Positions 15,720 through 33,160 of a DNA stretch of 64,000 nucleotides are shown here, in pieces. Positions within the stretch are counted from its first letter, which is position 1; every line of letters starts with the position of its first letter. Origin of the DNA: Clostridia bacterium (GTDB lineage: Bacteria; Bacillota; Peptococcia; DRI-13; SM3-B62); the NCBI GenBank assembly GCA_018433675.1, contig JAHDQS010000001.1:168232-232231 (forward strand), written 5' to 3'. The notes under the pieces were generated by a model. The model worked only from the letters and a program-made list of their open reading frames with translations, did not search any database and had not been told where the DNA came from. Position numbers and translations under genes: made by a program.

Positions 15720-17114
15720 TTATTTATGATGGAGCTTTTTATATAAAAGGGTCCGATGAATCCCTAAACGGTTTGCTGTTTCACCTATCCGACCGTTACA
15801 TTCTTGCAGAACTTGATTAATATATTTTAACTCAAAGTCTTTTACAACCTCTTTCAGAGATCCTTGAGAGGAATCTTTCGAGGTGTTAAAAGACGCGGTA
15901 GTTGATTGAGATTTGGAGGCCTCTTTTTTCTCGTCTTCCAAATCTAAGTCCAATATTTTTTTGTCATATGATATAATAACTAACCTCTCTATGACATTAC
16001 GTAATTCTCGGACATTGCCGGGCCAGCTGTAATTCTGCAAAGTGTCAATGGTGTTTGAAGAGAAGGTTTTATTGAAACCATATTTTTTATTAAATTCACT
16101 AAGAAAGTTTTCGGCAAGTATTATAATATCCTCCGGTCTTTCGCGCAGTGGAGGCAGTGTGATTGGTATCACATTCAAACGATAATATAAATCTTCTCTG
16201 AACAGGTCTTTTTGAACCAATTGTTTCAAATCTTTATTTGTAGCGGTGATTAAACGCACATCAGTGCTTATAAGCTTGGTTCCGCCTACACGTCTAAATT
16301 CTCTGGTTTCCGTGACCCGCAGGAGCTTGGATTGCATATCTAAAGGAAGTTCGGCTATTTCGTCTAAAAACAATGTGCCTTTGTGAGCCATTTGGAAAAA
16401 TCCAATTTTTCCATGGGGGTGTGCTCCGGAAAAGGCACCTTTTTCATATCCAAGGAATTCGGATTCCATCAAGTCATGTGGAATAGCCGCACAATTTACC
16501 GCAATAAAAGGCTCTTTATATCTTGGACTTTGGTGGTGGATGTGCCTGGCAATAACCTCTTTGCCTGATCCGGATTCGCCCAGGATTAAGACAGAACTAT
16601 CGGCTTTAGCTATTAAATTAGCCCTTTGAACTATTTCCAGCATGTTGGGGCTTTTGGCAATAAGTACTTGGTGCTGCGCATCATCCAGGTAGTGGATGAT
16701 GCTTTTATAATGAGCTGTGTTTTTTCGTTCTTCTTCCAGGGCATCTATGAAGTTTTCAATCAAATCCTTGGAGCGGGTATTTGTTATGACCATAGCAATT
16801 TGCCCATTCTCATTAAAAAGTGGAATGCTTGTTGACATTACTTTTTTTCCTGAAACAAGATTTACCAAACCTGTCACTTGTGAGCGGGTTCTGATGGCTT
16901 CCATGGTTGTGGAACGATCATAAGTGCCCTCTTCCATCAATTCATTGACATTCATTCCCATAACTTCCTCGATCGTTTTTTGCATCGGCAGTACAGCCGC
17001 AGCATTAGCCAGCAATATCTTGCCTGTTATATCTGTAACCAAAATACCGTCGTAGGAATTGTTTATAATTTGTTCCAGCCCAATCTGGTCGAATTGCTTA
17101 AGCGGAAATTTCAA
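15720..17114 (-). CDS. PAS-domain sigma-54-dependent transcriptional activator
   Basis: The 464-residue protein has a PAS sensor (about 10-115), a sigma-54 AAA+ domain with Walker A GESGSGKE (179-186), the sigma-contact loop GAFSGA (226-231, a serine for the usual threonine) and Walker B GTLFLDE (246-252), then a Fis-type helix-turn-helix near the C-terminus (GRIGETANRLGIHRTLLYKKL). There is no receiver domain, so a ligand in the PAS pocket is the likely signal. It is divergent from the DASS transporter, which has a -24/-12 promoter. Three more such promoters lie in the next 5 kb, making this the obvious activator of the island. Confidence 0.93.
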   Translation of the reverse strand: MKFPLKQFDQIGLEQIINNSYDGILVTDITGKILLANAAAVLPMQKTIEEVMGMNVNELMEEGTYDRSTTMEAIRTRSQVTGLVNLVSGKKVMSTSIPLFNENGQIAMVITNTRSKDLIENFIDALEEERKNTAHYKSIIHYLDDAQHQVLIAKSPNMLEIVQRANLIAKADSSVLILGESGSGKEVIARHIHHQSPRYKEPFIAVNCAAIPHDLMESEFLGYEKGAFSGAHPHGKIGFFQMAHKGTLFLDEIAELPLDMQSKLLRVTETREFRRVGGTKLISTDVRLITATNKDLKQLVQKDLFREDLYYRLNVIPITLPPLRERPEDIIILAENFLSEFNKKYGFNKTFSSNTIDTLQNYSWPGNVRELRNVIERLVIISYDKKILDLDLEDEKKEASKSQSTTASFNTSKDSSQGSLKEVVKDFELKYINQVLQECNGRIGETANRLGIHRTLLYKKLHHK

Positions 17115-17246: not shown

Positions 17247-17264
17247 TTGGCATAGTAATTGCAT
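17247..17264 (+). promoter_or_regulatory. Sigma-54 (-24/-12) promoter of the DASS transporter
   Basis: TTGGCATAGTAATTGCAT matches TGGCAC-N5-TTGCA with GG (17249-17250) and GC (17261-17262) separated by exactly ten bases. Expected start is near 17273. Confidence 0.8.
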
Positions 17265-17419
17265 AATAATATTCGTACGGAATGCAGGCTTTTCAGAAGC
17301 GGACCAAAAAGCTGAACCTGTGGTTGAGGGGGTGAAAAAGACGCTAATTATCGCTTTTAGAAGCAAATGATGTTGTTTAAAGAGAGTATAAAATTACTTT
17401 ACAAAGAATGGGTGAAAAA

Positions 17420-18808
17420 ATGAGCAAAAAAAGAATGAGTGGAGTTATAGGTGCTGCAATAGTTTTGGCGATTCTTTCCTTTTTAACCCCTCCGGAGGGA
17501 ATGTCGGTAGCAGGAATGAACACGGTAGGATTGCTTCTTATGGCACTGGTCCTCTGGGTTACGGAGGCGATCCCTCTATCTATTACAGCATTAGCCTTGA
17601 TTGCATTTCAGCCGATATACGGTGTTGCAACATCCGGTGTAGCATTTACTAATTTTATCAATTCGGTGTTTTTCTTTGTAATTGCCTCATACGGTATGTC
17701 TGTAGCAATTATGGGTACGACATTTACTAAACGCATAACAAATTGGCTTTTAAAGAAGACAAATGGCGAAGTATTCAAGGTAGTTTTGGCCTTTTCCGCA
17801 TCTGTGGGAGTTTTGTCGGCGTTTATTTCTAACATACCTGCTACTGCAGTTTTAATGGGCTTGGCGTTGGGGATGTTGGAACCGATAGAGGAAGGCCCCA
17901 TGAAAGCTAGAATGAGTAAAACATTAATGATTGCTATTCCTTTTGGGGCAATGATTGGGGGCTTGAGTACTCCAGCCGGAAGCTCTATCAACATTTTGGC
18001 CTTATTCTTATTAGAACAAAATGCAGGCATAACGATTTCATTCTTAGAATGGATGGCTTTTGGAGTTCCCATAGCTGTGCTAACCATTCCCATTAGTTCA
18101 TATGTCTTATTAAAATTGTTCAAACCGGACGCGATTAGTGCAGAGTCCATCAATATTATTCTGGAACGAACCACAGTGAAGGAACCACTGACTGTAAAGG
18201 AAAAGAAACTACTCGTCATATTGGTATTGATATTTTCATTTTGGATTGCGGGGACGTGGGTGCCGGCTTTTGATATCACGATTATAGCACTTGTTGGTTT
18301 GATTGCGATGTTTCTCCCGGGGATAGACGTATTGACCTGGGACGAATTCATAGAGGGTGTTAGCTGGGAGGCAGTGCTAATGGTCGGCGGAGTTTCATCA
18401 ATCGGTGCTGCTGTGTCGGCGACAGGTGTGAGCAGTTGGTTTGTAAGTGGCGTCTTATCAGGATTAGCTGATATGAGCATGGTAACCTTAGTTGTTCTGA
18501 TGGGCATGTTCTTTAATTTTATTCACCTTCTGTTACCTATAGGACCGGCTATTGTGGCTATAGGAGTGGTTCCATTGATTGTCTTGGCAGATACCATGTC
18601 GATCAGTCCGGTTATATTTATTATCACGTTGACTTTTATGTCCGGTCTTTGTATGCTTTTGCCTTTAGATGCGGTTCCTCTTATTACCTATACAAAGAAG
18701 CATTACACAATGATGGATATGTTTAAGTCGGGTCTGATTGTTAGTACCGTTGTAGTTGTGTTGCTGGCTATTTGGGGGCCTTTAGTAGGCAGCTGGATGG
18801 GTTATTAA
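17420..18808 (+). CDS. DASS (SLC13) family sodium-coupled di/tricarboxylate transporter
   Basis: The protein of about 462 residues has 11-12 membrane helices and the family motifs MALVLWVTEAIPLSITAL near the N-terminus, FGAMIGGLSTPAGSSIN (the first SNT-type sodium/substrate motif) and LPIGPAIVAIG near the C-terminus. It probably imports a dicarboxylate or related acid with sodium. The ATG at 17420 has GGGTG upstream; a start at 17408 lacks a ribosome site. It faces the activator gene and has a sigma-54 promoter. Two terminators follow. The true substrate is unknown but is probably what the island degrades. Confidence 0.88.
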   Translation: MSKKRMSGVIGAAIVLAILSFLTPPEGMSVAGMNTVGLLLMALVLWVTEAIPLSITALALIAFQPIYGVATSGVAFTNFINSVFFFVIASYGMSVAIMGTTFTKRITNWLLKKTNGEVFKVVLAFSASVGVLSAFISNIPATAVLMGLALGMLEPIEEGPMKARMSKTLMIAIPFGAMIGGLSTPAGSSINILALFLLEQNAGITISFLEWMAFGVPIAVLTIPISSYVLLKLFKPDAISAESINIILERTTVKEPLTVKEKKLLVILVLIFSFWIAGTWVPAFDITIIALVGLIAMFLPGIDVLTWDEFIEGVSWEAVLMVGGVSSIGAAVSATGVSSWFVSGVLSGLADMSMVTLVVLMGMFFNFIHLLLPIGPAIVAIGVVPLIVLADTMSISPVIFIITLTFMSGLCMLLPLDAVPLITYTKKHYTMMDMFKSGLIVSTVVVVLLAIWGPLVGSWMGY

Positions 18809-18918: not shown

Positions 18919-20490
18919 CTATTCAGAGGATTTTGCTTCGATAAAGGAACGAAGGGCTCCCCAGTTTTCCCGGAAGATTTCGGGAGGCATTGTTTTTAAA
19001 GTGGGGGAGATTCGTGGTTTGAAATCCATTGCAGAAAGTATATCCTTTTCCAAATCTAACCCCGGAGCAATTTCGATTAAAGTCAAGCCTTCCTTTTCCA
19101 AAGAAAAGACAGCCCGCTCTGTGACGTAAATAACAGGCTGGTTATTGGCTTGAGCATATTTGCCGCTGAAAGTTACTTGTTCAACATTATTGACAAATTT
19201 CCTCATGTTGCTTTCTTTGGTGATTTTAATTTCCCCATCTTTGACTTCCAGTTTGGCGCCATTGGTGAAGGTACCGCAGAAAACCACTTTTTTCGCGGTT
19301 TGGGTAATGTTTACGAAACCACCCGTTCCCACAACCTTTGGGCCAAATTTGCTGACATTGATGTTTCCTTCCTTATCAACCTGAGCCAAACCTACAAAGG
19401 ATGCATCAAGGCCTCCACCATCATAAAAATCGAATTGTGTCTCGTGGGCGATTAAGGCCTCGGGATTATAGGCTGCTGCGAAATCCGGACCACTGGCCGG
19501 TACTCCGCCATAAGTCCCCAGCTCTGTTGTCAGTGTAATAAGGTCGCTGGCTCCCTCTTCAGCGGCTATAAAGGATACGCCTGCGGCTAAACCGATGCCT
19601 AAGTTGATGATGGTGTTAGGAATCAATTCCATAGCTGCCCGGCGGGCGATGACTTTTCGTTCATTAAGCGGCAAGGCAGGGATGCCTTCCAAAGGTATCT
19701 TGATTTCTCCGGAAAATGAGGGGTTATATTGGGTTCCTATGGTTTGCATGTGATTTTCCGGTTCGGCTATCACAATGTAGTCAATCATGTTACCGGGTAC
19801 TTTTACTGTTCTTGGATCAAGAGTATCTGCTCGTGCCAGACGCTCTGCCTGAGCGATTACTATTCCTCCGCAATTCTTGGCGGCTTGTGCCATAGACAAA
19901 GCTTCAAGGACGACAGCTTCTTTTTCCATTGTAAGATTGCCTTTTTCATCGACTGTTGTGCCGCGAATTATCGCAACATCAATAGGAAAGGATTTGTACA
20001 GGAGCCATTCTTCGTTTTCTATCTCAATAACTTTGACTAATTCCTCTTCAGTAAGACTGGTTGCCTTGCCGCCATCTAAACGGGGGTCGACAAAGGTTCC
20101 TATCCCGATTTTAGTAACTACACCCGGCTTTTTTCCGGCAATTTGCCGCCAGAGCTGGGCTAGTACTCCTTGGGGCAATAAATATGCTTGAATCTTGTTT
20201 TCAGTAATTAGTTGGCCTACTTTCAATGCTTGACCGATATGGCCGGCGATCAGTCTTTTCAATAGACCTTCATGAGCAAAATGATTAGTTCCTCTTGTTT
20301 CTCCGCTGCCACACCCACAGCTGTGGGTTGCTGTGATATTTTTGGGATGCCCGCTTTCAAGGAATCTTTTCTCAATAGCTATCGCTACTTCCTCGGGAAA
20401 TCCACACAAACCAGCGGTAGTCCACACGATTGTTGAATTGTCATTGATAAGAGCGGCCGCTTGTTCGGCTGTTACTACTTTGTTAGACAT
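18919..20490 (-). CDS. Family I CoA-transferase (propionate CoA-transferase-like, fused subunits)
   Basis: The 523-residue protein joins the alpha and beta halves of a family I CoA-transferase, as in propionate CoA-transferase. The likely catalytic glutamate is E323 in LTTELGTYGGVPASG, and the glycine-rich GLCGFPEE and GIGLAAGVSF loops are present. It should move CoA from acetyl- or propionyl-CoA to a carboxylic acid, here presumably the island's substrate or an intermediate. The start at 20490 has GGAGG upstream; the open frame extends 34 codons further without support. It has its own sigma-54 promoter and is divergent from the hydroxyacyl-CoA dehydrogenase. Confidence 0.9.
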   Translation of the reverse strand: MSNKVVTAEQAAALINDNSTIVWTTAGLCGFPEEVAIAIEKRFLESGHPKNITATHSCGCGSGETRGTNHFAHEGLLKRLIAGHIGQALKVGQLITENKIQAYLLPQGVLAQLWRQIAGKKPGVVTKIGIGTFVDPRLDGGKATSLTEEELVKVIEIENEEWLLYKSFPIDVAIIRGTTVDEKGNLTMEKEAVVLEALSMAQAAKNCGGIVIAQAERLARADTLDPRTVKVPGNMIDYIVIAEPENHMQTIGTQYNPSFSGEIKIPLEGIPALPLNERKVIARRAAMELIPNTIINLGIGLAAGVSFIAAEEGASDLITLTTELGTYGGVPASGPDFAAAYNPEALIAHETQFDFYDGGGLDASFVGLAQVDKEGNINVSKFGPKVVGTGGFVNITQTAKKVVFCGTFTNGAKLEVKDGEIKITKESNMRKFVNNVEQVTFSGKYAQANNQPVIYVTERAVFSLEKEGLTLIEIAPGLDLEKDILSAMDFKPRISPTLKTMPPEIFRENWGALRSFIEAKSSE

Positions 20491-20588
20491 ACCGTTCCTC
20501 CTAATATTTTCTAGTGGCTTCATCAAGCAAACTACTTCAGGCAAAATCACCCTCATTTCACCGGAAGAGTTACTTATAAGTATAACTA

Positions 20589-20602
20589 GCAAAAATCATA
20601 CC
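20589..20602 (-). promoter_or_regulatory. Sigma-54 (-24/-12) promoter of the CoA-transferase
   Basis: On the minus strand TGGTATGATTTTTGCTA has GG (20602-20601) and GC (20590-20589) ten bases apart. Expected start near 20577, leaving a leader of about 87 bases. Confidence 0.65.
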
Positions 20603-20821: not shown

Positions 20822-20838
20822 TTGGCATAGGAATTGCA
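20822..20838 (+). promoter_or_regulatory. Sigma-54 (-24/-12) promoter of the 3-hydroxyacyl-CoA dehydrogenase
   Basis: TTGGCATAGGAATTGCA has GG (20824-20825) and GC (20836-20837) ten bases apart and is nearly identical to the promoter at 17247. Confidence 0.8.
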
Positions 20839-20955
20839 ATATTATATTTTCTGAAAAGAGGAAAGAACGCTTAAATCATTAAAACAAAGGGGGATATGAA
20901 TAGTCAGTTCGGTTGCGTCAAGGAAAAGACATTATACGGAATAGGAGATGGGGAG

Positions 20956-21810
20956 ATGGAAATTAAAACGATTGGGATTGTAGGTTCAGGAGCGATGGGA
21001 ACGGGGATTGCTTATGTCTCTGCCCAAAGTAAATATAATGTAAAAGTATATTGGAGAAGAGAATCAACAAGAGATCAGAGCATTGCAATCATTAATAAAA
21101 CACGTAACAAAGGCGTGGAAAGAGGAAAGATTACTCAAGAGGAGAGCGATGAATTATTCAAGAGGATTGAATTTGTTCATGAACTTGAGAGCTTTGCTGA
21201 TTGCGAATTGGTCATAGAATCTGTTGTCGAAAACCAAGAGATAAAAAATGACATTATGAAAAAACTGGACGCAATACTAGACAAGGATGCCATAATAGCA
21301 ACGAACACGTCATCGTTCTCTATTACTGCCCTGGCAAACGTAACTTCCAGGCCCGGCAAATTTATAGGGATGCACTTCTTTAATCCTGTTTATGCCATGA
21401 GATTGGTTGAAATCATTCGAGGTTTCCATACTTCTGATGAGACTGTCGGAATCATCCAAGGTGTAGTCGAAAGAATGAAGAAAACTTCGATCGTAGTCAA
21501 GCGCGACACTCCGGGTTTTGTCGTAAACCGTTTATTTATGGCTCAAGTAAGAGAAGCCATTAAAATTTTAGAAGAAGGAATTGCCGGCGTCAGAGACATT
21601 GATAAAGGGCTTACACTTGGGTTGAATCATCCTATGGGGCCATTTACCCTTATGGATGCCACGGGAGTAGATATTGCCTACTTTGTACTTTGCCATCTTC
21701 GTGAGGAACTGGGAGATGCTTATATGCCACCACAGTTGCTGAAAAGTATGGTTGAGGCTGGTTGTTTGGGCCAGAAATCCGGGCAAGGGTTTTACGATCA
21801 TTTCGAATAG
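20956..21810 (+). CDS. 3-hydroxyacyl-CoA dehydrogenase (3-hydroxybutyryl-CoA dehydrogenase-like)
   Basis: The 284-residue enzyme has the NAD-binding loop GIVGSGAMGTGIA at the N-terminus and the family catalytic segments TNTSSFSI and GMHFFNPVYAMRLVEII, with the later DTPGFVVNRLF and GLNHPMGPFTLMD. It should interconvert a 3-hydroxyacyl-CoA and a 3-oxoacyl-CoA with NAD(H). ATG 20956 with AGGAGATG upstream fits the family's usual N-terminus; ATG 20896 is an alternative that adds 20 residues. With the thiolase at 31967 it would form the oxidation and cleavage end of a pathway. Confidence 0.9.
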   Translation: MEIKTIGIVGSGAMGTGIAYVSAQSKYNVKVYWRRESTRDQSIAIINKTRNKGVERGKITQEESDELFKRIEFVHELESFADCELVIESVVENQEIKNDIMKKLDAILDKDAIIATNTSSFSITALANVTSRPGKFIGMHFFNPVYAMRLVEIIRGFHTSDETVGIIQGVVERMKKTSIVVKRDTPGFVVNRLFMAQVREAIKILEEGIAGVRDIDKGLTLGLNHPMGPFTLMDATGVDIAYFVLCHLREELGDAYMPPQLLKSMVEAGCLGQKSGQGFYDHFE

Positions 21811-22078: not shown

Positions 22079-22094
22079 TGGCATAAAAATTGCA
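22079..22094 (+). promoter_or_regulatory. Sigma-54 (-24/-12) promoter of the mutase operon
   Basis: TTGGCATAAAAATTGCAC has GG (22080-22081) and GC (22092-22093) ten bases apart. Expected start near 22105, fifty bases before the first gene. It is the main feature of the 344-base gap after the dehydrogenase gene. Confidence 0.8.
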
Positions 22095-22154: not shown

Positions 22155-23570
22155 ATGGGAATATACTTGCTTGTGGACTTTGGCAGCACTTACACGAAAA
22201 TAATTGCTGTTGATATCGAAAAGGAGATTATTCTGGGCCGAGCCCAGTCACCTACAACAATAAATACCGATATTACTATTGGTTTAGACAAGGCCCTTGC
22301 CGCTTTGGTTAAGAATTGTGGAATTGACACAGACAAGATTCAAGGGAAATATGCCAGTAGCAGTGCAGCCGGTGGATTAAAAATGACAGCGATTGGGCTT
22401 GTGCCGGAATTGACTTTAGAGGCAGCACGCAGGGCTGCGCTGGGGGCAGGCGCAAAGGTTGTTTCCGGTTACGGATTTGAGATTGATGAAGACATTATTG
22501 AAGAGATAGAAGCAGAAAAGTGCGATATCGTTCTTTTATGCGGCGGGACGGACGGCGGAGATAAAAAGGTTATCATTCATAATGCCAAGATGCTTGCGGA
22601 TTCTAAAATCAACTGTCCGATCTTGGTCGCCGGGAATCGCGCTGCCACAAATAAAATCAAAACCATCTTGGAAGAGAAAAACAAGACAGTATATACCGCT
22701 AAAAATGTTTTACCCAGCCTTGATGTCATAGATATCGAACCGGCTCAAGCCTTGATTCGTGAAATATTCATAGATCATATTGTAAAAGCCAAAGGATTGG
22801 GAAAAGCGCAAGCTTCTATAGGGAGAAATATCATGCCTACACCGATGGCCTCACTACAAGCTGCCGCTTTGTTAGCCGATGGGACAGAAGATGAGCCCGG
22901 CATAGGCAGTCTGGTAGTCGTAGAAATAGGCGGAGCCACAACAAACATTCATTCTGTTGCGGACATAACTCCTGTGACACCGCAAACCCTCATTAAAGGG
23001 CTGCCTGAATTACGGGTAAAAAGGACTGTAGAAGGGGATTTGGGCATCAGATATAATGCGCAGACCATATATGATTTGGTCGGTGAGGAGAAGATAAAAG
23101 CAATATTACAATCATTACTGACATCCCAAGCAGGCGGAGAAACAGACATTGAAAAATATGTAAATAACATTGCCAACAATGTTGATTATGTTCCCTCCTG
23201 TGATAACGAGTTCAATCTCGACATTTCGTTAGCTAAGGCAGCCACCGCGATTGCTGTTGAACGACATGCCGGGGTCCTCAAGAAAGAATATTCCATCCAG
23301 GGAGAAACAATGGTGCAATATGGGAAAAACCTTTTGAATACGGAAAATATCATCGGAACCGGTGGAGTGTTCAAATACGGTCTACGGCCGGAACGCATCT
23401 TGCAATCGGCGTTATTCAGCCAGGATAAACCTTGGAATTTAAAACCTCAAAAGCCCCAGGCATACATTGATGACGATTACATGCTTTATGGGATTGGCTT
23501 GCTGGCTAATGATTTTCCTGCTCAAGCTTTAAGGATAGCTAAAAAATACCTAAGACAGACTGCCCTGTAA
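22155..23570 (+). CDS. glmL: GlmL/MutL family accessory protein of glutamate-mutase-type enzymes
   Basis: The 471-residue protein has an actin/Hsp70-like ATPase fold: phosphate-1 loop LLVDFGSTYTKIIAVD at the N-terminus, the adenosine-side VVEIGGATTNIHSV and the C-terminal GTGGVFKYG. MutL proteins always accompany GlmES/OraSE-type mutases and are thought to act in their assembly or reactivation. It is the first gene of the operon and has its own sigma-54 promoter. The 74-base gap to the next gene holds a ribosome site only. Confidence 0.92.
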   Translation: MGIYLLVDFGSTYTKIIAVDIEKEIILGRAQSPTTINTDITIGLDKALAALVKNCGIDTDKIQGKYASSSAAGGLKMTAIGLVPELTLEAARRAALGAGAKVVSGYGFEIDEDIIEEIEAEKCDIVLLCGGTDGGDKKVIIHNAKMLADSKINCPILVAGNRAATNKIKTILEEKNKTVYTAKNVLPSLDVIDIEPAQALIREIFIDHIVKAKGLGKAQASIGRNIMPTPMASLQAAALLADGTEDEPGIGSLVVVEIGGATTNIHSVADITPVTPQTLIKGLPELRVKRTVEGDLGIRYNAQTIYDLVGEEKIKAILQSLLTSQAGGETDIEKYVNNIANNVDYVPSCDNEFNLDISLAKAATAIAVERHAGVLKKEYSIQGETMVQYGKNLLNTENIIGTGGVFKYGLRPERILQSALFSQDKPWNLKPQKPQAYIDDDYMLYGIGLLANDFPAQALRIAKKYLRQTAL

Positions 23571-23644: not shown

Positions 23645-25012
23645 ATGAAAACAGAAGAAAAAATCGTAAAATTTGTTTGCAATACGACGTTTGATGATGT
23701 GCCTGCCAAAACGATGGAAGTAGTAAAGAAACAAGTGCTTACCATTATCGGTACCACAATAGGTGGTAGCAGGTCTGATGGGTGCGAGACCGTGATGGAA
23801 CTGGCCAAAGAACTGGGAGGAAAGGAAGAAGCAACGATCCTGATTTACGGGGGTAAGGTTCCGGCTCGCCAAGCGGCTTTTGTTAATGGGACAATGGCAA
23901 GGGCTCTGGACTTTTGTGATGCTTTGTCACCGGGGCCTCATATTGGGGCGGCAACCATCTCCGGCGCGTTAGCGGCAGCTGAGCTCAAAGGTGGCTGTAG
24001 CGGCAAAGAGTTTATGACAGCCATTGCGGTAGGGGCAGAGGTGGCGATAAGGTTAAACCTCAGTGAAGCTCAATACGATGGTTTTGATCCAACAGGAGTT
24101 ATAGTTGTTTTTGCTTCGACGGCCGCAGCAGCAAAGATACTTGGCCTTTCCGAAGAAGAGACCTGGAACGCCCTAGCGCTTGCTTTCAATAAATGCGGAG
24201 GAAGCTTCCAAAGCCATGTGGACGGTTCTTTAGGAGTAAGGATAAATGAGGGTTGGATTGCAGAAACCGGCATCACATGTGCAAGAATGGCCAGCCGTGG
24301 CATTACCGGACCTAGAAACTTCTTGGAAGGTGTTTATGGATATTTCCATCTCTTTGGCCGGGATCAGATGTCGGGAGAAAAGGTTACCGCAGGACTGGGC
24401 ACAGAATATAACCTGGGCGAAATCGTATTCAAGCTGTTTCCCAGTTGTGCCTTGACCCAGGGAAGTACAGAAAAGATTTTAGAGCTAATGGAAGAAAAAG
24501 ATTTCGGAGCCGACGATGTAGAGCTTGTCTCCATTACAGTTCCGCCCTATACCTATAAATTGGTGGGGCATCCTTTTGAGGTGGGAAGCAATCCAAAAGT
24601 AAATGCCCAATTCAGTATTCGTTACTGTGTGGCCAATGCGCTGGTAAGAAAGGCTTCATTACTGGCTCATTTTGAGGACGAGACTATCAAAAATCCCGAG
24701 GTTTTGGCTCTGGCTAAGAAGGTTGAAGTTATATCGGATGTTGCCATGGAGGTAAGAGGACACACCCCCCTGGATATGAGAGTGGTCTTGAAAGACGGGA
24801 ATGAATACATCAAAAAGCTTGATATCGCTCCGGGTTTCCCCGGCAGGCCTCTGACTGATGAACAGCATAAGATGCGTTTTCTGAACTGTGTCGATTTCTC
24901 GGGCCGGGACATTACTCAGGAAAAGGTAGAAGATATCATAACCACAGTTAATCAACTGGAAACCATGAATGATGTGCGGGAGCTAGTCAAGATGCTCACT
25001 GAAGATATCTAA
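23645..25012 (+). CDS. MmgE/PrpD family protein (2-methylcitrate dehydratase / aconitate decarboxylase superfamily)
   Basis: The 455-residue protein shows the MmgE/PrpD pattern: an all-helical N-terminal domain with VNGTMARALDFCDALSPGPHIGAA, then KLFPSCALTQGSTEKILEL and a C-terminal lid domain. Members dehydrate, decarboxylate or epimerise branched di- and tricarboxylic acids. Here it sits between the mutase chaperone and the mutase E subunit. The acid it handles is therefore probably a substrate or product of the mutase. The exact reaction cannot be read from the sequence. Ribosome site GAAAGGAG. Confidence 0.88.
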   Translation: MKTEEKIVKFVCNTTFDDVPAKTMEVVKKQVLTIIGTTIGGSRSDGCETVMELAKELGGKEEATILIYGGKVPARQAAFVNGTMARALDFCDALSPGPHIGAATISGALAAAELKGGCSGKEFMTAIAVGAEVAIRLNLSEAQYDGFDPTGVIVVFASTAAAAKILGLSEEETWNALALAFNKCGGSFQSHVDGSLGVRINEGWIAETGITCARMASRGITGPRNFLEGVYGYFHLFGRDQMSGEKVTAGLGTEYNLGEIVFKLFPSCALTQGSTEKILELMEEKDFGADDVELVSITVPPYTYKLVGHPFEVGSNPKVNAQFSIRYCVANALVRKASLLAHFEDETIKNPEVLALAKKVEVISDVAMEVRGHTPLDMRVVLKDGNEYIKKLDIAPGFPGRPLTDEQHKMRFLNCVDFSGRDITQEKVEDIITTVNQLETMNDVRELVKMLTEDI

Positions 25013-25035
25013 ACAAGAGAAAGAGAGGAAACACG

Positions 25036-26508
25036 ATGACCTTCGCAATCAAAAATGAAAGGCTGACGGATGAAGAGTTTTTTAAGATAAGAAACGAAGA
25101 AGTCCTTCCCCAGTGGGAGACCGGCAAAGCGATTGCAAATCTGGAAGAAAACATCGCCATAGCTAAGGAATTAACTCAAGGCAAAAACTATGCCCTCACG
25201 TTGGCAGAACATAAAAAGAACGGAACCAATATCTTTGAGCCCCAATTTGGACGGGCACTCACCGAATACATGATCGAGGGCATCACGTATGTAGAGGAAA
25301 ATTCCGACATGTATCCCGACGGAGTATGGACGCTTTTCAGTGATACCTACACACGCAAAGGGGATTTTAAGAAAGCAGCGGCCGGGATTGAGCGCAGTAA
25401 AAAAGAAGGCATGAATATGCTTAACGGTTGGCCTGTGGTTTGCTTTGGCGTAGAAGAGGCTAGGAAGATAACCAAAGCGGCAAAGTGTCCTTTGAACCTC
25501 AATTCAGCCGATGAGGATGCTCGTTTACAAACGGAAATAGTATTTGCGGCAGGCTGGAACGGCGGTAACAATAACCCGATCATGACAGCAATAGCCCATA
25601 GTAAAAACATTCCGATGGATAAACTGCTAAAAATAAAGCAGTATGATGCCAGACTGGGCGGGATCTATACGGAAAACGGAGTTCCGATTTGTCCGCACAA
25701 TGCCAGCAATCTATCCGGTTACGATGCCCCTGCTATGAGATCCTACACAAATGTCGTGCAAGTTTTGCTAGCAGCTGAGCAAGGGATAAAATACTCGCAC
25801 GTTATGCACGGTCTCGGCATGAACATGATTCAGGATACAGCTATGGGTAGAGTGACTGAAAAGCTTTGCAATGAATATTGTGAGCGTTTTGGTTACAAAG
25901 ATATGACTTTTATTATCGGCGGTTATCCTTTCCTGGGTGCTTGGCCTCCGAGATTGGAAGAAGCACATGCCATGATAGCCTGGAATGCCTTGATAGACAT
26001 CATGGGTGGCTTCACTAATATCGTTTTAAAATGTGAAGACGAAGCCTTCGGGACTCCTTCCAAGGAAGGCATGGCCAATTCTGTCAGGTTGGCAAGACAC
26101 TTAGTCACTTTATTGGGAGATCAGAAAGTTGCAGATTCGGATAGACTCAAGCTTGAAGAAAAAATGATAGAAATGGAAGCAAGGGCAATACTGGATAAGA
26201 CCATAGAAGCCGGTGACGGCGATATAGCGATTGGGTTATGTAAGGCGATAGAAGCCGGTTGGTTTGATACCATGGTTTCTCCCTGGTGTCATGTGAAAGG
26301 GAAAGTAGAATATATCCGTGATGCGGAAAATGCTGTAAGGTATTTTAATTACGGTAATGTACCGATCCCTAAAGAAGCAAGGGAATATAACGAAGAAAAG
26401 TTGAAAGAAAGAGAAAAGAAAATAGGCAAGAAATTGACCTTTGATTATGTGGTCAGTGATTTACAGTATGCCTCAATATTACCTGTGCCTAAGCCGTTTA
26501 AAAAATAG
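25036..26508 (+). CDS. Glutamate-mutase-like (GlmE family) large subunit with altered substrate pocket
   Basis: The 490-residue protein aligns along its length with glutamate mutase epsilon, the TIM-barrel subunit that binds the substrate and the adenosyl end of cobalamin. Lys332 and Glu336 (KCEDE) match Lys326/Glu330, which contact the adenosyl group, and Arg107 (DTYTRKG) matches Arg100 of the glutamate-binding arginine trio. The other two are changed: the Arg66 position is Gln70 (EPQFGRA for the usual QPRAGVA) and the Arg149 position is Asn156. The segment around Glu171 is also rewritten. The family call is firm; glutamate as substrate is doubtful. No methylaspartase gene is near. Confidence 0.88.
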   Translation: MTFAIKNERLTDEEFFKIRNEEVLPQWETGKAIANLEENIAIAKELTQGKNYALTLAEHKKNGTNIFEPQFGRALTEYMIEGITYVEENSDMYPDGVWTLFSDTYTRKGDFKKAAAGIERSKKEGMNMLNGWPVVCFGVEEARKITKAAKCPLNLNSADEDARLQTEIVFAAGWNGGNNNPIMTAIAHSKNIPMDKLLKIKQYDARLGGIYTENGVPICPHNASNLSGYDAPAMRSYTNVVQVLLAAEQGIKYSHVMHGLGMNMIQDTAMGRVTEKLCNEYCERFGYKDMTFIIGGYPFLGAWPPRLEEAHAMIAWNALIDIMGGFTNIVLKCEDEAFGTPSKEGMANSVRLARHLVTLLGDQKVADSDRLKLEEKMIEMEARAILDKTIEAGDGDIAIGLCKAIEAGWFDTMVSPWCHVKGKVEYIRDAENAVRYFNYGNVPIPKEAREYNEEKLKEREKKIGKKLTFDYVVSDLQYASILPVPKPFKK

Positions 26509-26565
26509 GGATCAGCTAGCTTCAAATCTCAAGAAGTTGCGCAGTATCTGCGAGGAGGAAGAATT

Positions 26566-27000
26566 ATGGAAAAACGACAAGCAAATAAAAGCGTTGTAAT
26601 TGGTACTATTGGCGGAGATGCACATATGATTGGCGCCTGGGTTCTTTCCAAAGCTTTTGAAAAAGCCGGGTTTAAGGTTGCCTATCTTGGTGCGGTAGTT
26701 CCGCAAAAGGATTTCGTCAACGCTGCCATCGAAATAGATGCCGATGCCATTCTCGTTTCGTCAATGTACGGGATGGGAATAATGGATTGTGAAGGGTTAA
26801 GAGAAAAATGTATTGAAGCAGGGCTGAAGGATATTATACTGTACGCGGGCGGTACTGTTGCAGCGCCGCTGGAGCTGGAAAAAAACTGGCCTGAAATTGA
26901 AAAACGCTTCGAAAAGATAGGTTTTAACCGTGTCTTCAAGAACACCTGTACAGCAGATGAGGCAGTTGAAACTCTGAAAGCTGATTTAGGCATCGAATAA
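26566..27000 (+). CDS. Cobalamin-binding small subunit of the mutase (GlmS/MutS family)
   Basis: The 144-residue protein has the DxHxxG base-off cobalamin motif as D18-A-H20-M-I-G23, in which the histidine replaces dimethylbenzimidazole as the cobalt ligand. It also has LVSSMYG...DCEGLREKC and YAGGTV, which lines the nucleotide-tail cleft. It is the B12 half of the heterotetrameric mutase with the E gene just upstream. The order S after E is reversed relative to classical glmS-mutL-glmE operons. Confidence 0.93.
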   Translation: MEKRQANKSVVIGTIGGDAHMIGAWVLSKAFEKAGFKVAYLGAVVPQKDFVNAAIEIDADAILVSSMYGMGIMDCEGLREKCIEAGLKDIILYAGGTVAAPLELEKNWPEIEKRFEKIGFNRVFKNTCTADEAVETLKADLGIE

Positions 27001-27504
27001 ATGAAGATATATACAAAAACAGGGGACGCAGGTAAGACATCGTTACTTTCAGGAGAGAGGGTATTCAAGGGCAGTTTGAGGGTAGAGGCTTATGGCACTA
27101 TTGATGAACTTGCCTCGGTGCTGGGAATGGCTCGCTCCCTTTGTCAAAACACGAAAGTAACCAAAGAGATTTTCGAGGTGCAGAAGCTCCTTGTGCGAAT
27201 CATGACAGAGGTTGCAACGCGAGCAGATGTTAAAACGCCGATTGTTGATTCCGATGTGCAGAACATTGAAAAACGGATTGACGAAGCAGTTGTTCAATTG
27301 GAACAACTCTGTAGCTTTCTTTACCCAGGAGACAGTCCGGGTTCGGCTGCGCTTCATGTAGCCCGCACCGTTGTCCGCAGAGCGGAAAGAATAATGTGGC
27401 GTCTTTCCTGCGAAGCAAAAGTCAATGAAGGGATATTATCCATCCTAAATAGACTCTCAGATTACCTTTTTATTCTCGCTAGGTATGAAGATGAAATGGT
27501 ATAG
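27001..27504 (+). CDS. PduO-type ATP:cob(I)alamin adenosyltransferase
   Basis: The 167-residue protein makes adenosylcobalamin, the cofactor of the mutase upstream. The N-terminal ATP segment YTKTGDAGKTSLLSGERV and the C-terminal RTVVRRAERIMWRLS, containing the basic residues that hold triphosphate, are intact. Its ATG abuts the stop codon of the S subunit, so translation is coupled. Placing a dedicated adenosyltransferase within the operon ties cofactor repair to mutase expression. Confidence 0.95.
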   Translation: MKIYTKTGDAGKTSLLSGERVFKGSLRVEAYGTIDELASVLGMARSLCQNTKVTKEIFEVQKLLVRIMTEVATRADVKTPIVDSDVQNIEKRIDEAVVQLEQLCSFLYPGDSPGSAALHVARTVVRRAERIMWRLSCEAKVNEGILSILNRLSDYLFILARYEDEMV

Positions 27505-27640
27505 AAGGGGAGTATTGGAAAAGTATGAACAAATTATTAATGTGGGGGGTGGTTACAACTGCTGATTTTATGACGGGGAAGGATCAGAACAAACTATACA
27601 AAGGCCTTTAAAAAACTACAAAAAAATCAGGGGGTTTATG

Positions 27641-28714
27641 ATGAGAAAATTTACCAAAATAGCTATTAGTGTATTGTTAATCTTAAGCTTCATAATGTTA
27701 ATGCCAGGATGTTCTTCTTCATCAAATGAAGAAGGAAACGGCGAACCGGAAGCAAAAACCTATAATTTTAAAGTAGCGCATTTCTTTGGTGCTTCTCATC
27801 CCATGCATGCAGTGGCAACAGAAGGATGGATGGAAGCTATTGAAACAGCAACCGACGGTCAAGTGACATTTACGGCCTATCCCGGCGAGACATTGCTGAA
27901 GGCTACTGAAACTTATGATGGTTTAGAAAGTGGCGTTACGGATATCGGTTTGGCTCCTTTCGGCTACAGCAGAGGACGTTTCCCTGTCAGCGAATTATTT
28001 GACTTGGCCGGAATCGACTACGGTAATGGCAGGGTAGCCAGCGAGGTAGCAATGGATGTAATTGAAAAGTACCAGCCGAAGGAACTGGATAATATGAAGG
28101 TGTTTATGATAATTTCCACCGGTCCGGGACATTTGTTTACAAAAGAGCCTGTAAAAAATCTCGAGGAACTGCAAAAACTGAAAATAAGGGTAACCGGGTT
28201 GAGCACCAAAACCATGGAAGCAATGGGCGTAACACCTGTAGCATTGTCAATGTCAGAGACATACGAAGCATTACAAAGAGGACTCTGTGACGGATGTCTT
28301 GGTGCAGCAGAAATCTTAGAAGCGTGGAATATGGCTGAAGTAACAGATTATATTACCGAATGTCCGTTCCTCTACACCTCTGCATTTTATTTTGGAATGA
28401 ATATGGATGTATGGAATTCACTGCCCGCCGATCTCCAGGCTACTATTCAGGAAGCCAGCGATAAATTCTTTGATGAAAAAGCAGCGGCACTATTAGGAGA
28501 TATAAACATACAGGGAATGCAGTATGGACTAGATCAGGGTATGGAAGCTATCCAACTTTCTGACGAAGAGGAAGCCAGATGGAAAGGATTTATAGAGCCG
28601 CTTCATCAGGATTATATTAAAATGGTAGACGCGGAAGGATATCCGGGAGAAGAAATTCTGGAATACGCTAAATCTCAAACAGCAAAATACAACGCGGAAT
28701 ATGGCTTAGAATAA
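27641..28714 (+). CDS. TRAP transporter substrate-binding lipoprotein (DctP family)
   Basis: The protein of about 357 residues has a lipoprotein signal ending LMPGC (Cys24), then the DctP fold: VAHFFGASHPMHAVA near the mature N-terminus, KIRVTGLSTKTMEAMGVTPVALSMSETYEALQRGLCDG in the middle and a helical tail. It should capture an organic acid outside the membrane for the two membrane subunits that follow. An arginine of the usual carboxylate clamp is present in LKIRVTG. The start at 27641 is better spaced from AGGGGG than the adjacent ATG at 27638. Confidence 0.92.
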   Translation: MRKFTKIAISVLLILSFIMLMPGCSSSSNEEGNGEPEAKTYNFKVAHFFGASHPMHAVATEGWMEAIETATDGQVTFTAYPGETLLKATETYDGLESGVTDIGLAPFGYSRGRFPVSELFDLAGIDYGNGRVASEVAMDVIEKYQPKELDNMKVFMIISTGPGHLFTKEPVKNLEELQKLKIRVTGLSTKTMEAMGVTPVALSMSETYEALQRGLCDGCLGAAEILEAWNMAEVTDYITECPFLYTSAFYFGMNMDVWNSLPADLQATIQEASDKFFDEKAAALLGDINIQGMQYGLDQGMEAIQLSDEEEARWKGFIEPLHQDYIKMVDAEGYPGEEILEYAKSQTAKYNAEYGLE

Positions 28715-28925: not shown

Positions 28926-29399
28926 ATGGAGCAAAAATTGAAAAAGGTCACCTCGTTTCTGGAAAAAATATCCTGGATATGTTTGATGGCGGCGATGCTA
29001 GTGATTGTCGCCGGGGTCTTAACTCGTGCCTTTACCAAACCGATGGTCGGTACTGACGAATATACGGGCTTTATTATGGCTTGCTTCATTGGATTGGCTT
29101 TGGCGCATTGTGCCATCAACGACGGTCATATTGCCGTGGAAATGTTAATGGTAAGGTTTTCAGGAAAAGTACAGGACGTTGTCAGTTTTATTATAAATGG
29201 TATATCGGCTGTTTTCTGGGCTATAGCAACATGGAATGTAGGAAAATATGCTTATAGCATGTACACCGGCGGCGAAGTAACAATGACAACGACCCTTCCT
29301 TTTTATCCGTATATCTATGTAGTTGCATTTGGAGTTTTTGGACTTATGATAGTAGCAGTATTTAAGGCAATAGAGTCAATAGGGAGGGTGGTCAAATAA
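28926..29399 (+). CDS. TRAP transporter small membrane subunit (DctQ family)
   Basis: This 157-residue protein has four membrane helices and the DctQ-type segment TDEYTGFIMACFIGLALAHCAINDGHIAVEM. With the large subunit it forms the sodium-driven permease for the acid captured by the lipoprotein upstream. A GAGGGGG ribosome site precedes it, and its stop codon overlaps the ATG of the large subunit (TAATG), so the two are translated together. Confidence 0.92.
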   Translation: MEQKLKKVTSFLEKISWICLMAAMLVIVAGVLTRAFTKPMVGTDEYTGFIMACFIGLALAHCAINDGHIAVEMLMVRFSGKVQDVVSFIINGISAVFWAIATWNVGKYAYSMYTGGEVTMTTTLPFYPYIYVVAFGVFGLMIVAVFKAIESIGRVVK

Positions 29400-30706
29400 T
29401 GGACCCTTTAATTTTAGGTGCGATAGGCATATTAGTGTTTTTTGTGCTTCTGGCGTTAAGAATGCCGATATCTTATGCTATGGCCATAGTAGGGTTCGTA
29501 GGTTACAGCATGTTGACATCACCGGAAGTTGCTTTTAGGATCGTCAGTAAGGACCTCTATTCAACTTTTTCGTCTTACTCTCTTTCCGTTGCTCCCATGT
29601 TTATTTTAATGGGGCTTATTGCCTTTCGTTCCGGAATCGGCGGGAAATTGTATAATTTCGCCTATAAACTAATCGGCCATTTTCCGGGTGGACTGGCGAT
29701 AGCAACTCAAGCAACGTGTGCACTTTTTGGGGCAATTTGCGGATCGAATACGGCAACAGCCGCAACAATAGGCTCGATTGCTTTGCCGGAAATGAAAAAA
29801 TATAAATATGATGCATCACTTTCCACAGCCAGTGTAGGTGCGGGAGGGGTATTAGGTGTTCTTATTCCGCCCAGTACAATTTTCATAGTTTACGGAGTAG
29901 CAACTCAGGTATCAATAGGAAAACTTTTTGTGGCAGGTATCGTGCCCGGAATACTTTTGATGCTTTTCTACATGGCTGCGATTTATTATATGGTGCGGAG
30001 GAACCCGGAATTGGGACCCGCCGGAGAAAAGTCTACCTGGAAAGAAAGAGGGAAAGCTTTTAGCTCAGGCCTGTGGGAATTGGCTATTATATTGGTAGTG
30101 TCGCTGGGAGGTCTTTTCGCCGGATATTTCACTCCTACGGAAGCCGGGGCCGTGGGTGCCGCCAGTATTATTATAGTGAGCTTTTTGGAAAGAAGCCTTA
30201 GTTGGGAGAATTTTAAACTGGCTATTTCCGAAACCACCAAAACAAGCGCAATGATCATGCTGCTCATAGCCGGTGCTACGATTTTCGGACGGTTTATGGC
30301 CATCAGCAGGCTTCCCTTTGAATTGGCAACAATTGTAGGGAATCTTCCGGTACCGTCTTTTGTTGCGGTATTGATCATCTTGGCAATTTGCTTAGTGTTG
30401 GGTTGCATTATTGACGCTTTGGCCTTGGTTATGTTGACCATTCCGATATTCTTCCCTGTTGTTGTTGGCACTCTTGGTTATGATCCGATATGGTTCGGAG
30501 TTGTTATGGTTATGGTTGTCGCCATGGGAGTAATAACACCGCCTGTAGGAATGAACATTTATATTCTTAAAGGAATAGCTCCTGATATACCTCTTGAGAC
30601 CATGTTTAGGGGTATCTGGCCATTTTTGCTCATGCAGATATTGCTTGTGCTTGTAATGATAGCAATTCCTGGAATTGCGACGTTCTTACCAAATTTAATA
30701 TATTAG
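29399..30706 (+). CDS. TRAP transporter large permease subunit (DctM family)
   Basis: The 435-residue protein has about twelve membrane helices and the repeated DctM signatures ATQATCALFGAICGSNTATAATIG, GVLGVLIPPSTIFIVYG, GYFTPTEAGAVGA and GVITPPVGMNIYILKG. It forms the transport path of the TRAP system. It belongs to the island by position, although no sigma-54 promoter was found before this transporter. It may be read through from the mutase operon, since no terminator lies between. Confidence 0.95.
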   Translation: MDPLILGAIGILVFFVLLALRMPISYAMAIVGFVGYSMLTSPEVAFRIVSKDLYSTFSSYSLSVAPMFILMGLIAFRSGIGGKLYNFAYKLIGHFPGGLAIATQATCALFGAICGSNTATAATIGSIALPEMKKYKYDASLSTASVGAGGVLGVLIPPSTIFIVYGVATQVSIGKLFVAGIVPGILLMLFYMAAIYYMVRRNPELGPAGEKSTWKERGKAFSSGLWELAIILVVSLGGLFAGYFTPTEAGAVGAASIIIVSFLERSLSWENFKLAISETTKTSAMIMLLIAGATIFGRFMAISRLPFELATIVGNLPVPSFVAVLIILAICLVLGCIIDALALVMLTIPIFFPVVVGTLGYDPIWFGVVMVMVVAMGVITPPVGMNIYILKGIAPDIPLETMFRGIWPFLLMQILLVLVMIAIPGIATFLPNLIY

Positions 30707-30798: not shown

Positions 30799-31335
30799 AT
30801 GCTCATTTCTGAAGAACAGAAAGCCAGAGCATTGCAGTATGCAAAAGAAAATCAGGTCGATCACGGCTTAAGCTGTTCGGAATCCGTTTTTAATGCCTTA
30901 ATCCGAGCCGGGATTATAGATCTTCCCGAGGAATATACCTGTCTTGCTACCGGGCTTTCGGGCGGTGTCGGAGCTTCCGGCAATACCTGCGGTGCTGTTT
31001 ATGGTGCCTTGATGGCTCTTGGTGCGGTCTACGGTAGAAAAGATCCTTTGGCTGAGCCCTTTGAACCCACCAAGCCTATCCCTCTGGAGGAGGACTACCG
31101 ATACTATATGATGCGAAGATTCAACAATCTCAGCAATGACTTTGCAGAGCATCTTGAAACCTGGCGCTGTGGTGATGTTATTGCGGAATGTGGCGGTTAT
31201 TTCGAAAAAAAGCGCAGGGGAAAATGCACAGAAATTATCGTTCATGCCACAGAATTGGCGCTTAAGTATTTGGAGATGGACGAGGAAACGAACGATGCCC
31301 TACCCTACAAAAAAAATATTTATGGATGGAAATAA
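30799..31335 (+). CDS. C_GCAxxG_C_C family putative redox-active protein, copy 1
   Basis: The 178-residue protein has the family cysteine pattern: LSCSESVFNALI, then GLSGGVGASGNTCGAVYGALMALG, then WRCGDVIAECGGYF and RGKCTEI. The family is thought to use conserved cysteines for redox or metal/cluster chemistry but has no established reaction. It has a GGAGGAG ribosome site and is followed 33 bases later by a clear paralogue. Position between a TRAP transporter and a thiolase suggests a role in the island's metabolism; which one is unknown. Confidence 0.85.
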   Translation: MLISEEQKARALQYAKENQVDHGLSCSESVFNALIRAGIIDLPEEYTCLATGLSGGVGASGNTCGAVYGALMALGAVYGRKDPLAEPFEPTKPIPLEEDYRYYMMRRFNNLSNDFAEHLETWRCGDVIAECGGYFEKKRRGKCTEIIVHATELALKYLEMDEETNDALPYKKNIYGWK

Positions 31336-31368: not shown

Positions 31369-31923
31369 ATGGCACTTTCGGAAGAACAGAAGAAACTTGC
31401 ACAACAATATGCTGAGGAAAATATTCGTTCCGGGCTGAATTGCTCGGAGTCGGTTTTTAATGCACTGCTGCGTTCCAAAGTAGTAGATTACCCGGAGGAA
31501 CTTACAGCCCTTGTTTCCGGATTGAATGGCGGAGTTGGTTCTGCCGGATATTCCTGCGGTGCACTGGCAAGTGCAATGATAGCCCTGGGCTCCGTATATG
31601 GGCGGAAGGATCCCATCAAGAACCGCGGAAAAATCCTGAATGATTCAGAAACCGCTTACTGTGCCGAGAAGCCGGAGGACGATTTCAGATATTACTTTAT
31701 GCGTCGTTTTAACGCTTGTGTCGAGGAGTTTAAACAAAAAATGGGGACACTGCGTTGTCAGGACGTTATTGATGCGAATGGCGGTTACTACTCGCCTGAC
31801 AGGCAGGCGAAATGTGAGCAGATGATTCATTGCGGTGTCGAGGTTGCACTAAAATATATAGACATGGAACAGGAAGAAGCAGATAAGCTGCCCTATTGTG
31901 AAAATATATTTGGCTGGAAATAA
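31369..31923 (+). CDS. C_GCAxxG_C_C family putative redox-active protein, copy 2
   Basis: The 184-residue protein is a tandem paralogue of the preceding one. They share the N-terminal LSEEQKK...YA-EN, CSESVFNAL, GGVG...CGA, ALG-VYGRKDP, FRYY-MRRFN and the ending NI-GWK. It has an insertion of about eight residues after the VYGRKDP segment. The cysteines of the family pattern are kept (NCSESV, YSCGALA, RCQDVI, KCEQM). The two may form a heteromer. Confidence 0.85.
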   Translation: MALSEEQKKLAQQYAEENIRSGLNCSESVFNALLRSKVVDYPEELTALVSGLNGGVGSAGYSCGALASAMIALGSVYGRKDPIKNRGKILNDSETAYCAEKPEDDFRYYFMRRFNACVEEFKQKMGTLRCQDVIDANGGYYSPDRQAKCEQMIHCGVEVALKYIDMEQEEADKLPYCENIFGWK

Positions 31924-31966
31924 AGACAAAGAAAAGAACAATTACACTATTCTAGGAGGGAAAATA

Positions 31967-33160
31967 ATGTTTAAAAATGCTTTTATTCCGTACAGAGGGT
32001 ATTACAGTACACCCTTTTGTAAATGGCAGGGGAGTCTGCAAAACGATAATTCGATTGAACTGGGGGCCAAAACCAGTAAACGGTGGTTTGAGAGCAAAGG
32101 AATCGATCCCCAAAAAGAACTTGAATACCTTTATTTAGGAATTACGATTGGACAAAAAAGTGTATTCTTTGGCGCCACATGGGCTGCAGTAATGATGGGA
32201 GCACCTGATATCCCGGGGAATACCGTTATGCATGCCTGTGCTACTTCAACAACCTCTCTCTTTAATGCCAGCATGTCGGTAGAGGCCGGTAGCGTTGGCA
32301 CTGCCTATTGTCTTATGGTTGATAGGACATCCAACGGGCCACATACGATTTGGCCTAACCCCTTAGGCCTGGGAGGAGAAGTAATTGCTGAAAACTGGAA
32401 CATGGACAATATGAAAGCCGATCCTTCCACTCAACAGGGAATGATTCAAACAGCAGAAAATGTTGCCAAAGAAATCGGAGCAACCAGGGAAGAAGCCGAT
32501 GAACTGGTCTTGCGGCGTTATGAGCAGTATAATGATGCCTTAGCGAATGACCGGGCTTTTCAAAAACGTTATATGTTCCCGGTAGAGGCTACAATAACCC
32601 GCAAGAAAAAAGAAATGATTTATGAAGATGAAGGAATAACGAAAACAACCAGAGAAGGATTGGAACGTTTGCGTCCACAGTTAGAGGGAGGTATTCATAC
32701 CTTTGGTGCGCAAACACATCCGGCAGATGGTCATGTGGGTATCATAGTCACAAACAAAGAACATGCAGCCCAATTGAGTGCTGATCCTGGCATACCAATT
32801 CAAGTGGTATCCTACGGTGTGGCCCGGGCGCAGAAAGCTTTCATGCCGATGGCTCCTGTTCCGGCTACCCTTAAGGCCTTGGAACGTGCCGGACTCAAAG
32901 CTACGGATATAACCGCTATCAAGACACACAACCCGTTTGCGGCTAATGACCTTTGCTTGGCTAAGAAATTGGGTATTGATGTAAATGGCTTTAATAATTA
33001 TGGTAGTTCTATGGTCTATGGCCATCCTCAGGCACCGACTGCGGGACGGTTGCTTATCGAGGCCATAGAAGAAACAGTAATCAAAGGCGGAGGTTATGCC
33101 CTGGTGACCGGTTGCGCTGCGGGCGATAACGCTGCCACACTCATTGTGAAGGTTGGATAA
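31967..33160 (+). CDS. Divergent thiolase family protein
   Basis: The 397-residue protein keeps the three catalytic groups of thiolases: the nucleophile cysteine in MHACATSTTS, the histidine in VYGHPQAPTAGR and the second cysteine in VTGCAAGDN. The usual NEAFA loop reads HNPFA and the N-terminus lacks the standard RTPFG opening. It should cleave or form a 3-oxoacyl-CoA, probably with an unusual chain. Together with the CoA-transferase and hydroxyacyl-CoA dehydrogenase it completes a beta-oxidation-like end to the island. The start at 31967 follows AGGAGGG; an in-frame ATG at 31898 lies within the previous gene. Confidence 0.8.
   Translation: MFKNAFIPYRGYYSTPFCKWQGSLQNDNSIELGAKTSKRWFESKGIDPQKELEYLYLGITIGQKSVFFGATWAAVMMGAPDIPGNTVMHACATSTTSLFNASMSVEAGSVGTAYCLMVDRTSNGPHTIWPNPLGLGGEVIAENWNMDNMKADPSTQQGMIQTAENVAKEIGATREEADELVLRRYEQYNDALANDRAFQKRYMFPVEATITRKKKEMIYEDEGITKTTREGLERLRPQLEGGIHTFGAQTHPADGHVGIIVTNKEHAAQLSADPGIPIQVVSYGVARAQKAFMPMAPVPATLKALERAGLKATDITAIKTHNPFAANDLCLAKKLGIDVNGFNNYGSSMVYGHPQAPTAGRLLIEAIEETVIKGGGYALVTGCAAGDNAATLIVKVG

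Follow-up and report, generated by a model that had tools for sequence, protein, structure and literature searches.

The window, the whole 64-kb stretch of DNA analysed here, carries at 25036..26508 on the + strand an uninterrupted open reading frame of 490 aa, which encodes a full-length, divergent GlmE-type large subunit (hereafter the variant GlmE). The gene lies in an operon (22155-27504) whose first gene encodes a GlmL-type mutase accessory ATPase (22155..23570, +; NF040745, 567 bits, cutoff 475). It is followed by the genes for an MmgE/PrpD-family protein with an altered active site (23645..25012, +; Pfam MmgE_PrpD_N/C and active-site columns), the variant GlmE, a GlmS-type B12-binding subunit with an intact D-x-H-x-x-G motif (26566..27000, +; TIGR01501, 151 bits, cutoff 135.8; 1i9c chain A, E = 3e-39), and a PduO-type cob(I)alamin adenosyltransferase (27001..27504, +; TIGR00636, 167.6 bits, cutoff 108). 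The operon is a complete kit for an AdoCbl-dependent enzyme.

Beyond the operon follow three TRAP genes, two genes for C_GCAxxG_C_C proteins and one thiolase gene, all on the + strand. The solute-binding protein DctP (27638..28714; NF037995, 98 bits, above cutoff) contains the motif LKIRVTG. The small permease (28926..29399) has no NCBIfam match and is assigned to the DctQ position from its place between DctP and the large permease DctM (29399..30706; TIGR00786, 347 bits). TRAP systems with a conserved arginine in the binding protein select carboxylates (PMC4646407), and LKIRVTG probably holds the carboxylate-binding Arg of this DctP. An assignment of the TRAP ligand from PDB matches was dropped, as the matches were too distant. 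The two putative redox proteins of the C_GCAxxG_C_C type (30799..31335, TIGR01909, 61.8 bits; 31369..31923, PF09719, 67 bits, and TIGR01909, 57.5 bits) precede a thiolase-fold acyl-CoA acetyltransferase (31898..33160; TIGR01930, 185 bits, below cutoff; Thiolase_N/C), the start of which is probably internal. Farther downstream, at 37281-44367, a GntR regulator, a UxaA-type dehydratase and an aconitase X large subunit are followed by an apparent small AcnX subunit and apparent TRAP genes, forming a separate cluster for acid or amino-acid catabolism.

Upstream of the operon lie a DASS-family sodium-coupled anion symporter (17408..18808, +; TIGR00785, 165 bits, below the cutoff of 198.6), a fused CoA-transferase (18919..20592, -; Pfam CoA_trans; FadX-like, 463 bits, below cutoff), which probably starts downstream of the TTG, near 20490, and a 3-hydroxybutyryl-CoA dehydrogenase-type enzyme (20896..21810, +; likely start 20956; NF004474, 320 bits, below the cutoff of 408). 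Exact matches to the sigma-54 (-24/-12) promoter pattern TGGCATANNNATTGCA begin at 17248, 20823 and 22079. The first, TGGCATAGTAATTGCA (17248..17263, +), precedes the symporter gene and is represented by TGGCACAGTAATTGCA at the same place in a sister species; the second, TGGCATAGGAATTGCA (20823..20838, +), precedes the 3-hydroxyacyl-CoA dehydrogenase gene, and the third, TGGCATAAAAATTGCA (22079..22094, +), the mutase operon, both being identical in the sister species. A near-consensus site stands before the CoA-transferase gene (20588-20603, -) and is conserved there as well. With up to two mismatches, TGGCATANNNATTGCA occurs eight times in the window against 2.4 occurrences expected, a number reached in none of 100 shuffles, and 17 copies of TGGCAYANNNNTTGCA are present genome-wide, compared with two of the reversed control pattern. 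The host genome has rpoN, and a PAS/AAA+/Fis-type sigma-54-dependent activator (15720..17114, -; Pfam Sigma54_activat, 228 bits, with PAS and HTH_8; PrdR-like, 406 bits, below cutoff) is the probable regulator of the cluster. Judging from these sites, the mutase operon probably forms one catabolic sigma-54 regulon with the genes for the symporter, the CoA-transferase and the dehydrogenase.

The variant GlmE matches the GlmE of Clostridium cochlearium (1cb7/1ccw/1i9c) over residues 5-476 (E = 3.5e-86), and its barrel is recognised by PF06368 over the whole length (317 bits). The barrel is paired with a separate GlmS, in which the motif GGDAHMIG aligns to 1i9c chain A. The system resembles the GlmES of C. 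cochlearium (EC 5.4.99.1; TIGR01503/PF06368) in that both subunits are homologous over their whole length, the B12 histidine motif and the equivalents of K326, E330, G68, N123 and R100 are present, and a GlmL chaperone is encoded in the operon. By fold, partners and cofactor features, the predicted protein belongs to the GlmES superfamily. The methylmalonyl-CoA, isobutyryl-CoA, 2-hydroxyisobutyryl-CoA and 2-methyleneglutarate mutases, which likewise carry out AdoCbl radical skeleton rearrangements, have a homologous B12-binding domain (weak matches). Unlike in the CoA-ester mutases, the barrel of the variant is of the GlmE type, a type that binds a free acid rather than a CoA ester, and a profile search gave no match of the variant GlmE to the large subunits of the CoA-ester or 2-methyleneglutarate mutases. 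At the level of the curated equivalog family TIGR01503, the variant reaches 316.3 bits, below the cutoff of 390.1, whereas the canonical paralogue of the same host reaches 759.

Residues 100-210 of the C. cochlearium protein align to the variant with zero gaps, a constant offset of +7 and many invariant anchors, so that the pairings R100=R107, R149=N156, H150=S157, E171=N178, Y177=T184 and Y181=H188 are unambiguous. For R66=Q70, the flanking pairs P65/P69 and G68/G72 serve as anchors. The alignment bears out the numbering of the initial annotation, which had reported Arg107, Lys332 and Glu336 as kept and Gln70 and Asn156 at the other two positions of the arginine claw (R66, R100, R149). It likewise places the segment AGWNGGNNNP, described there as rewritten around Glu171, at residues 172-181, with N178 in the place of E171. 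The cofactor side was said to be retained, and G68, N123, K326 (=K332) and E330 (=E336) are indeed all present; K326 and E330 we take to be adenosyl-side residues of the C. cochlearium enzyme. Further changes in the pocket are H150>S157, Y177>T184, Y181>H188, F216>A223, H291>Y297 and M294>L300. In a comparison set of 56 canonical GlmEs, drawn from the phylum of the host and from plasmids, R66, R100, R149, H150, E171, Y177 and Y181 are each at least 98% conserved, which places the substitutions of the variant beyond ordinary variation. The variant changes 71 of the 143 near-invariant canonical positions and keeps 72; with about half of them altered, some of the changes need not concern the substrate.

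The roles of these residues are known from the C. cochlearium enzyme, for which a rate of 16-20 per second is cited in PMC10947579. According to Gruber et al. 2022 (PMC10947579), R66, R149 and E171 bind the glycyl moiety of glutamate, R100 and Y177 bind its acrylate moiety, and G68 and N123 are in backbone contact with the adenosine. In the variant, the three glycyl contacts are gone, and R100, G68 and N123 are retained. An AlphaFold2 model built from two sequences was discarded (pLDDT 34), and the pocket geometry is read from sequence; on this reading, the variant no longer has a site for the amino-acid half that migrates, and Gln and Asn line its place. As R100 (=Arg107), the holder of the acrylate carboxylate, is kept, one carboxylate is probably still bound, and its site on Arg107 is probably intact. 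The earlier view that the pocket for both carboxylates and the amino group had been rebuilt thus applies to the glycyl contacts and not to the acrylate carboxylate.

The genome of the host also contains, on another contig, a canonical set (L065) with glmS-glmL-glmE, a complete methylaspartate ammonia-lyase gene, a citE-like gene and citF. The two loci have the glmS/glmL/glmE core in common, but the variant operon has neither the ammonia-lyase nor citE/citF. The presence of this second set implies that the variant is an extra copy, released from its duty in the methylaspartate pathway. In the canonical operon of the host, as in Peptoclostridium, E. coli, Ensifer and Rhizobium, the methylaspartate ammonia-lyase gene comes after glmE; in the variant operon, the lyase gene is absent, and an MmgE/PrpD gene is found instead, on the opposite side of glmE from the canonical position of the lyase. 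Together with this MmgE/PrpD, TRAP and sigma-54 context, the replacement of R66, R149, E171 and Y177 and the score below the curated cutoff set the variant apart from known GlmES systems. As the family score, the arginine claw, E171 and the ammonia-lyase link all fail to match glutamate mutase, the name methylaspartate mutase is unfit for it.

The MmgE/PrpD family includes, among members of known structure, cis-aconitate decarboxylase, iminodisuccinate epimerase and 2-methylcitrate dehydratase. Its main catalytic histidine is H102 of B. subtilis IRG1, and its basic cavity is thought to hold carboxylates (PMC7347537). The protein of the variant operon keeps the main histidine as H99. It has D148 and V198 in place of the second histidine (H151) and the lysine (K200), and its loop at R100 is shorter. 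Both neighbours, GlmE and the MmgE/PrpD protein, have lost basic residues, which fits a shared metabolite; this metabolite would bear one charged group fewer.

Other pocket-divergent GlmEs in 398 genomes of the phylum are L061 and L049 (genome G362) and L050 (genome G133). They are about 30-37% identical to the variant, as they are to canonical GlmEs, and are probably not its orthologues. E171 is lost in all of them. All three keep R149, and L049 and L050 also keep R66, whereas the variant has neither. TRAP carriers are encoded nearby, as at the variant locus. In G133, an MmgE/PrpD gene adjoins the GlmS gene; its product is 35% identical to that of the variant operon and, in a search of 396 genomes of the phylum, ranks among the three best matches, with the query itself counted. 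The fifth-best match lies on contig C4 of G362, about 12.5 kb from GlmE, and on contig C26 of that genome a further MmgE/PrpD gene adjoins a GlmL gene. Divergent GlmEs are thus paired with MmgE/PrpD proteins in two other lineages as well. The pathways presumably differ from that of the variant locus, as the L049 and L050 clusters include HyuA/B carboxylase- or lactamase-like proteins and glycyl radical enzymes, which are absent there, and aldehyde:ferredoxin oxidoreductase occurs in the G362:C4 cluster (by Pfam) and in the G133 cluster (by appearance).

L061 (G362:C25, 7782-9221; without E171 and R66) and L050 (G133:C1, 8299-9765; without E171) score 393 and 399.5 bits against TIGR01503, just over the cutoff of 390.1. 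They would thus be annotated as methylaspartate mutase E despite their differing pockets, and the automatic label "methylaspartate mutase subunit E" can mislead. The cluster on contig C26 of G362 (L149) encodes a lactate racemase-like protein and two 2-hydroxyacyl-CoA dehydratase-type subunits (752-4559 and 14900-17853), together with TRAP proteins, a GlmL and two MmgE/PrpD proteins in which Asp replaces the family His and Phe the Lys.

With moderate confidence, the variant GlmE can be regarded as the large subunit of a GlmES-type AdoCbl-dependent carbon-skeleton mutase with a substrate other than glutamate. The initial annotation had already considered glutamate an unlikely substrate; the loss of the glycyl contacts, the canonical operon of the host, the absence of ammonia-lyase from the variant operon and the purifying selection described below all favour that view, at the strength given here. 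The substrate of this mutase is probably a carboxylate in which the half that migrates is not an amino acid. The adenosyl radical would remove a hydrogen from X-CH2-CH2-COO-, held by its carboxylate on Arg107, and the group X would migrate to yield X-CH(CH3)-COO-, or the reverse. X would be neutral, without the glycyl ammonium and carboxylate, and gripped by neutral amide side chains. The acid could enter via the TRAP or the DASS carrier, the MmgE/PrpD protein would work beside the mutase, replacing methylaspartate ammonia-lyase, and the product may be finished by the CoA-transferase, the 3-hydroxyacyl-CoA dehydrogenase and the thiolase, the first two of which would be under sigma-54 control with the mutase operon. 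It counts against this scheme that Arg73 could partly stand in for R66 and that the MmgE/PrpD protein is left without a specific role.

The number of known AdoCbl carbon-skeleton mutases is small, and to our knowledge all GlmES-type enzymes act on glutamate/3-methylaspartate. A natural variant in which the glycyl half of the site is replaced, with the acrylate half and the cofactor machinery retained, would show how a radical scaffold changes its substrate, and the defined regulon opens the substrate to growth and expression tests. As a more specific and quite speculative version, the enzyme might be an AdoCbl mutase that acts on a 4-hydroxy (or 4-oxo) carboxylate as the free acid, converting R-CH(OH)-CH2-CH2-COO- to R-CH(OH)-CH(CH3)-COO-. 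The resulting 3-hydroxy-2-methyl acid could then be cut to an acyl-CoA and propionyl-CoA by the CoA-transferase and the dehydrogenase, which are co-regulated with the mutase, and by the thiolase encoded nearby. Such a reaction would fit the neutral migrating group, Arg107 and the neighbouring enzymes and would not account for the MmgE/PrpD protein. We know of no skeleton mutase reaction on 4-hydroxy (or 4-oxo) carboxylates; if real, it would allow gamma-hydroxy acids such as 4-hydroxyvalerate to be metabolised anaerobically.

That the enzyme has remained a glutamate (or 2-oxoglutarate) mutase, with Arg73 and polar Asn/Gln residues rebuilding the glutamate site differently, appears rather unlikely. 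This reading draws on position 69, three residues past R66, which is Arg73 in the variant and Lys in L061 and is basic in no canonical GlmE; these two are the only proteins of the divergent group without R66, and Arg73 may partly replace R66 or reach the pocket. GlmL and GlmS also score above the curated cutoffs of glutamate mutase families. However, R149, H150, E171, Y177 and Y181 are changed too, with no visible replacement, and an enzyme of this kind would duplicate a full canonical operon while lacking the methylaspartate ammonia-lyase. In another five GlmE homologues (L043-L047, from G158, G123, G082, G077 and G118), the claw and E171 are kept, Y177 is replaced by Ala/Ser/Thr, and four of the five have Arg at position 69, which may represent a further substrate shift.

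A dicarboxylate without an amino group is likewise an unlikely substrate. In this hydroxy-acid mirror of the methylaspartate pathway, 2-hydroxyglutarate, for example, would be converted to 3-methylmalate, which the MmgE/PrpD protein would then dehydrate as PrpD does 2-methylcitrate. Such a route would give the MmgE/PrpD protein a purpose at the place where an ammonia-lyase is expected. The G133 and G362:C4 relatives, which retain all three arginines and have lost E171, fit a non-amino diacid, and 2-hydroxyacyl-CoA dehydratase genes stand near the MmgE/PrpD and GlmL genes of G362:C26. The variant itself speaks against it, having lost two of the three arginines, with a partner that has D148 for the family His and V198 for the Lys and a cluster without citramalyl-CoA lyase or 2-hydroxyglutaryl-CoA dehydratase. 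The latter enzyme was also considered as a downstream step from elsewhere in the genome and rejected, as the HGD-D-type proteins found are weak partial matches on other contigs.

A changed type of reaction, namely AdoCbl-dependent elimination without skeleton rearrangement, is very improbable: the pocket divergence is large and R100 alone could hold a carboxylate beside the radical, but nothing specific favours it, and we know of no eliminase that combines the GlmE fold with a GlmS-type protein as a separate subunit.

The sister species carries the variant glmE at 98% identity, with the same substitutions fixed. Between the two species, dS is 0.495, dN 0.0069 and omega 0.014; the canonical GlmE, compared between these genomes, has an omega of 0.060. 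The variant GlmS shows no amino-acid change (dN/dS 0). Purifying selection on the variant GlmE is strong. A decaying or non-catalytic paralogue, which the loss of many normally invariant residues might suggest, is hardly credible given these values and the conservation of operon order and promoters between both species.

Beyond the sister species, no orthologues were found in the host's own class (46 genomes), in the phylum (398 genomes) or in the classes of G133, G362 and G083; all other matches, the GlmE homologues from the 398 genomes of the phylum among them, are at most 37% identical to the variant where identity was measured. A pattern scan of 84,980 species, requiring an exact short peptide match, returned the sister species only, and a scan of viral contigs for further related sequences gave no match. 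No report of GlmE paralogues with other substrates was found within open-licence papers. The separate clade defined by Gln70/Asn156, proposed initially as a check, thus exists as the two sister species only. A wider clade of all divergent GlmEs is compatible with the data: it is recovered in a quick tree (SH-aLRT 98), left unresolved in a careful one and not rejected by the AU test (p 0.65); given the very long branches, it is kept as no more than possible.

Several other GlmE-like proteins are of note. The neighbours of two of them (L052, 8865-10325; L053, 8201-9610) include genes resembling those for ribonuclease PH/RdgB and for tripartite tricarboxylate carriers, and no GlmS was seen among the ORFs nearby. 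Both have lost R100, L053 also lacks K326/E330, and they are possibly not mutases. In L062 (G093:C1, 8650-10842), GlmE makes up residues 247-729 of a 731-aa frame, the N-terminal 246 residues of which may be a fused partner or merely an upstream open frame. A very divergent GlmE-like protein with the claw residues kept is encoded on a Methylobacter plasmid (L085, 5898-9251). It is encoded together with a B12-binding protein and a third protein, next to genes for a PLP enzyme, asparagine synthetase A and an EamA transporter. A biosynthetic use is possible.
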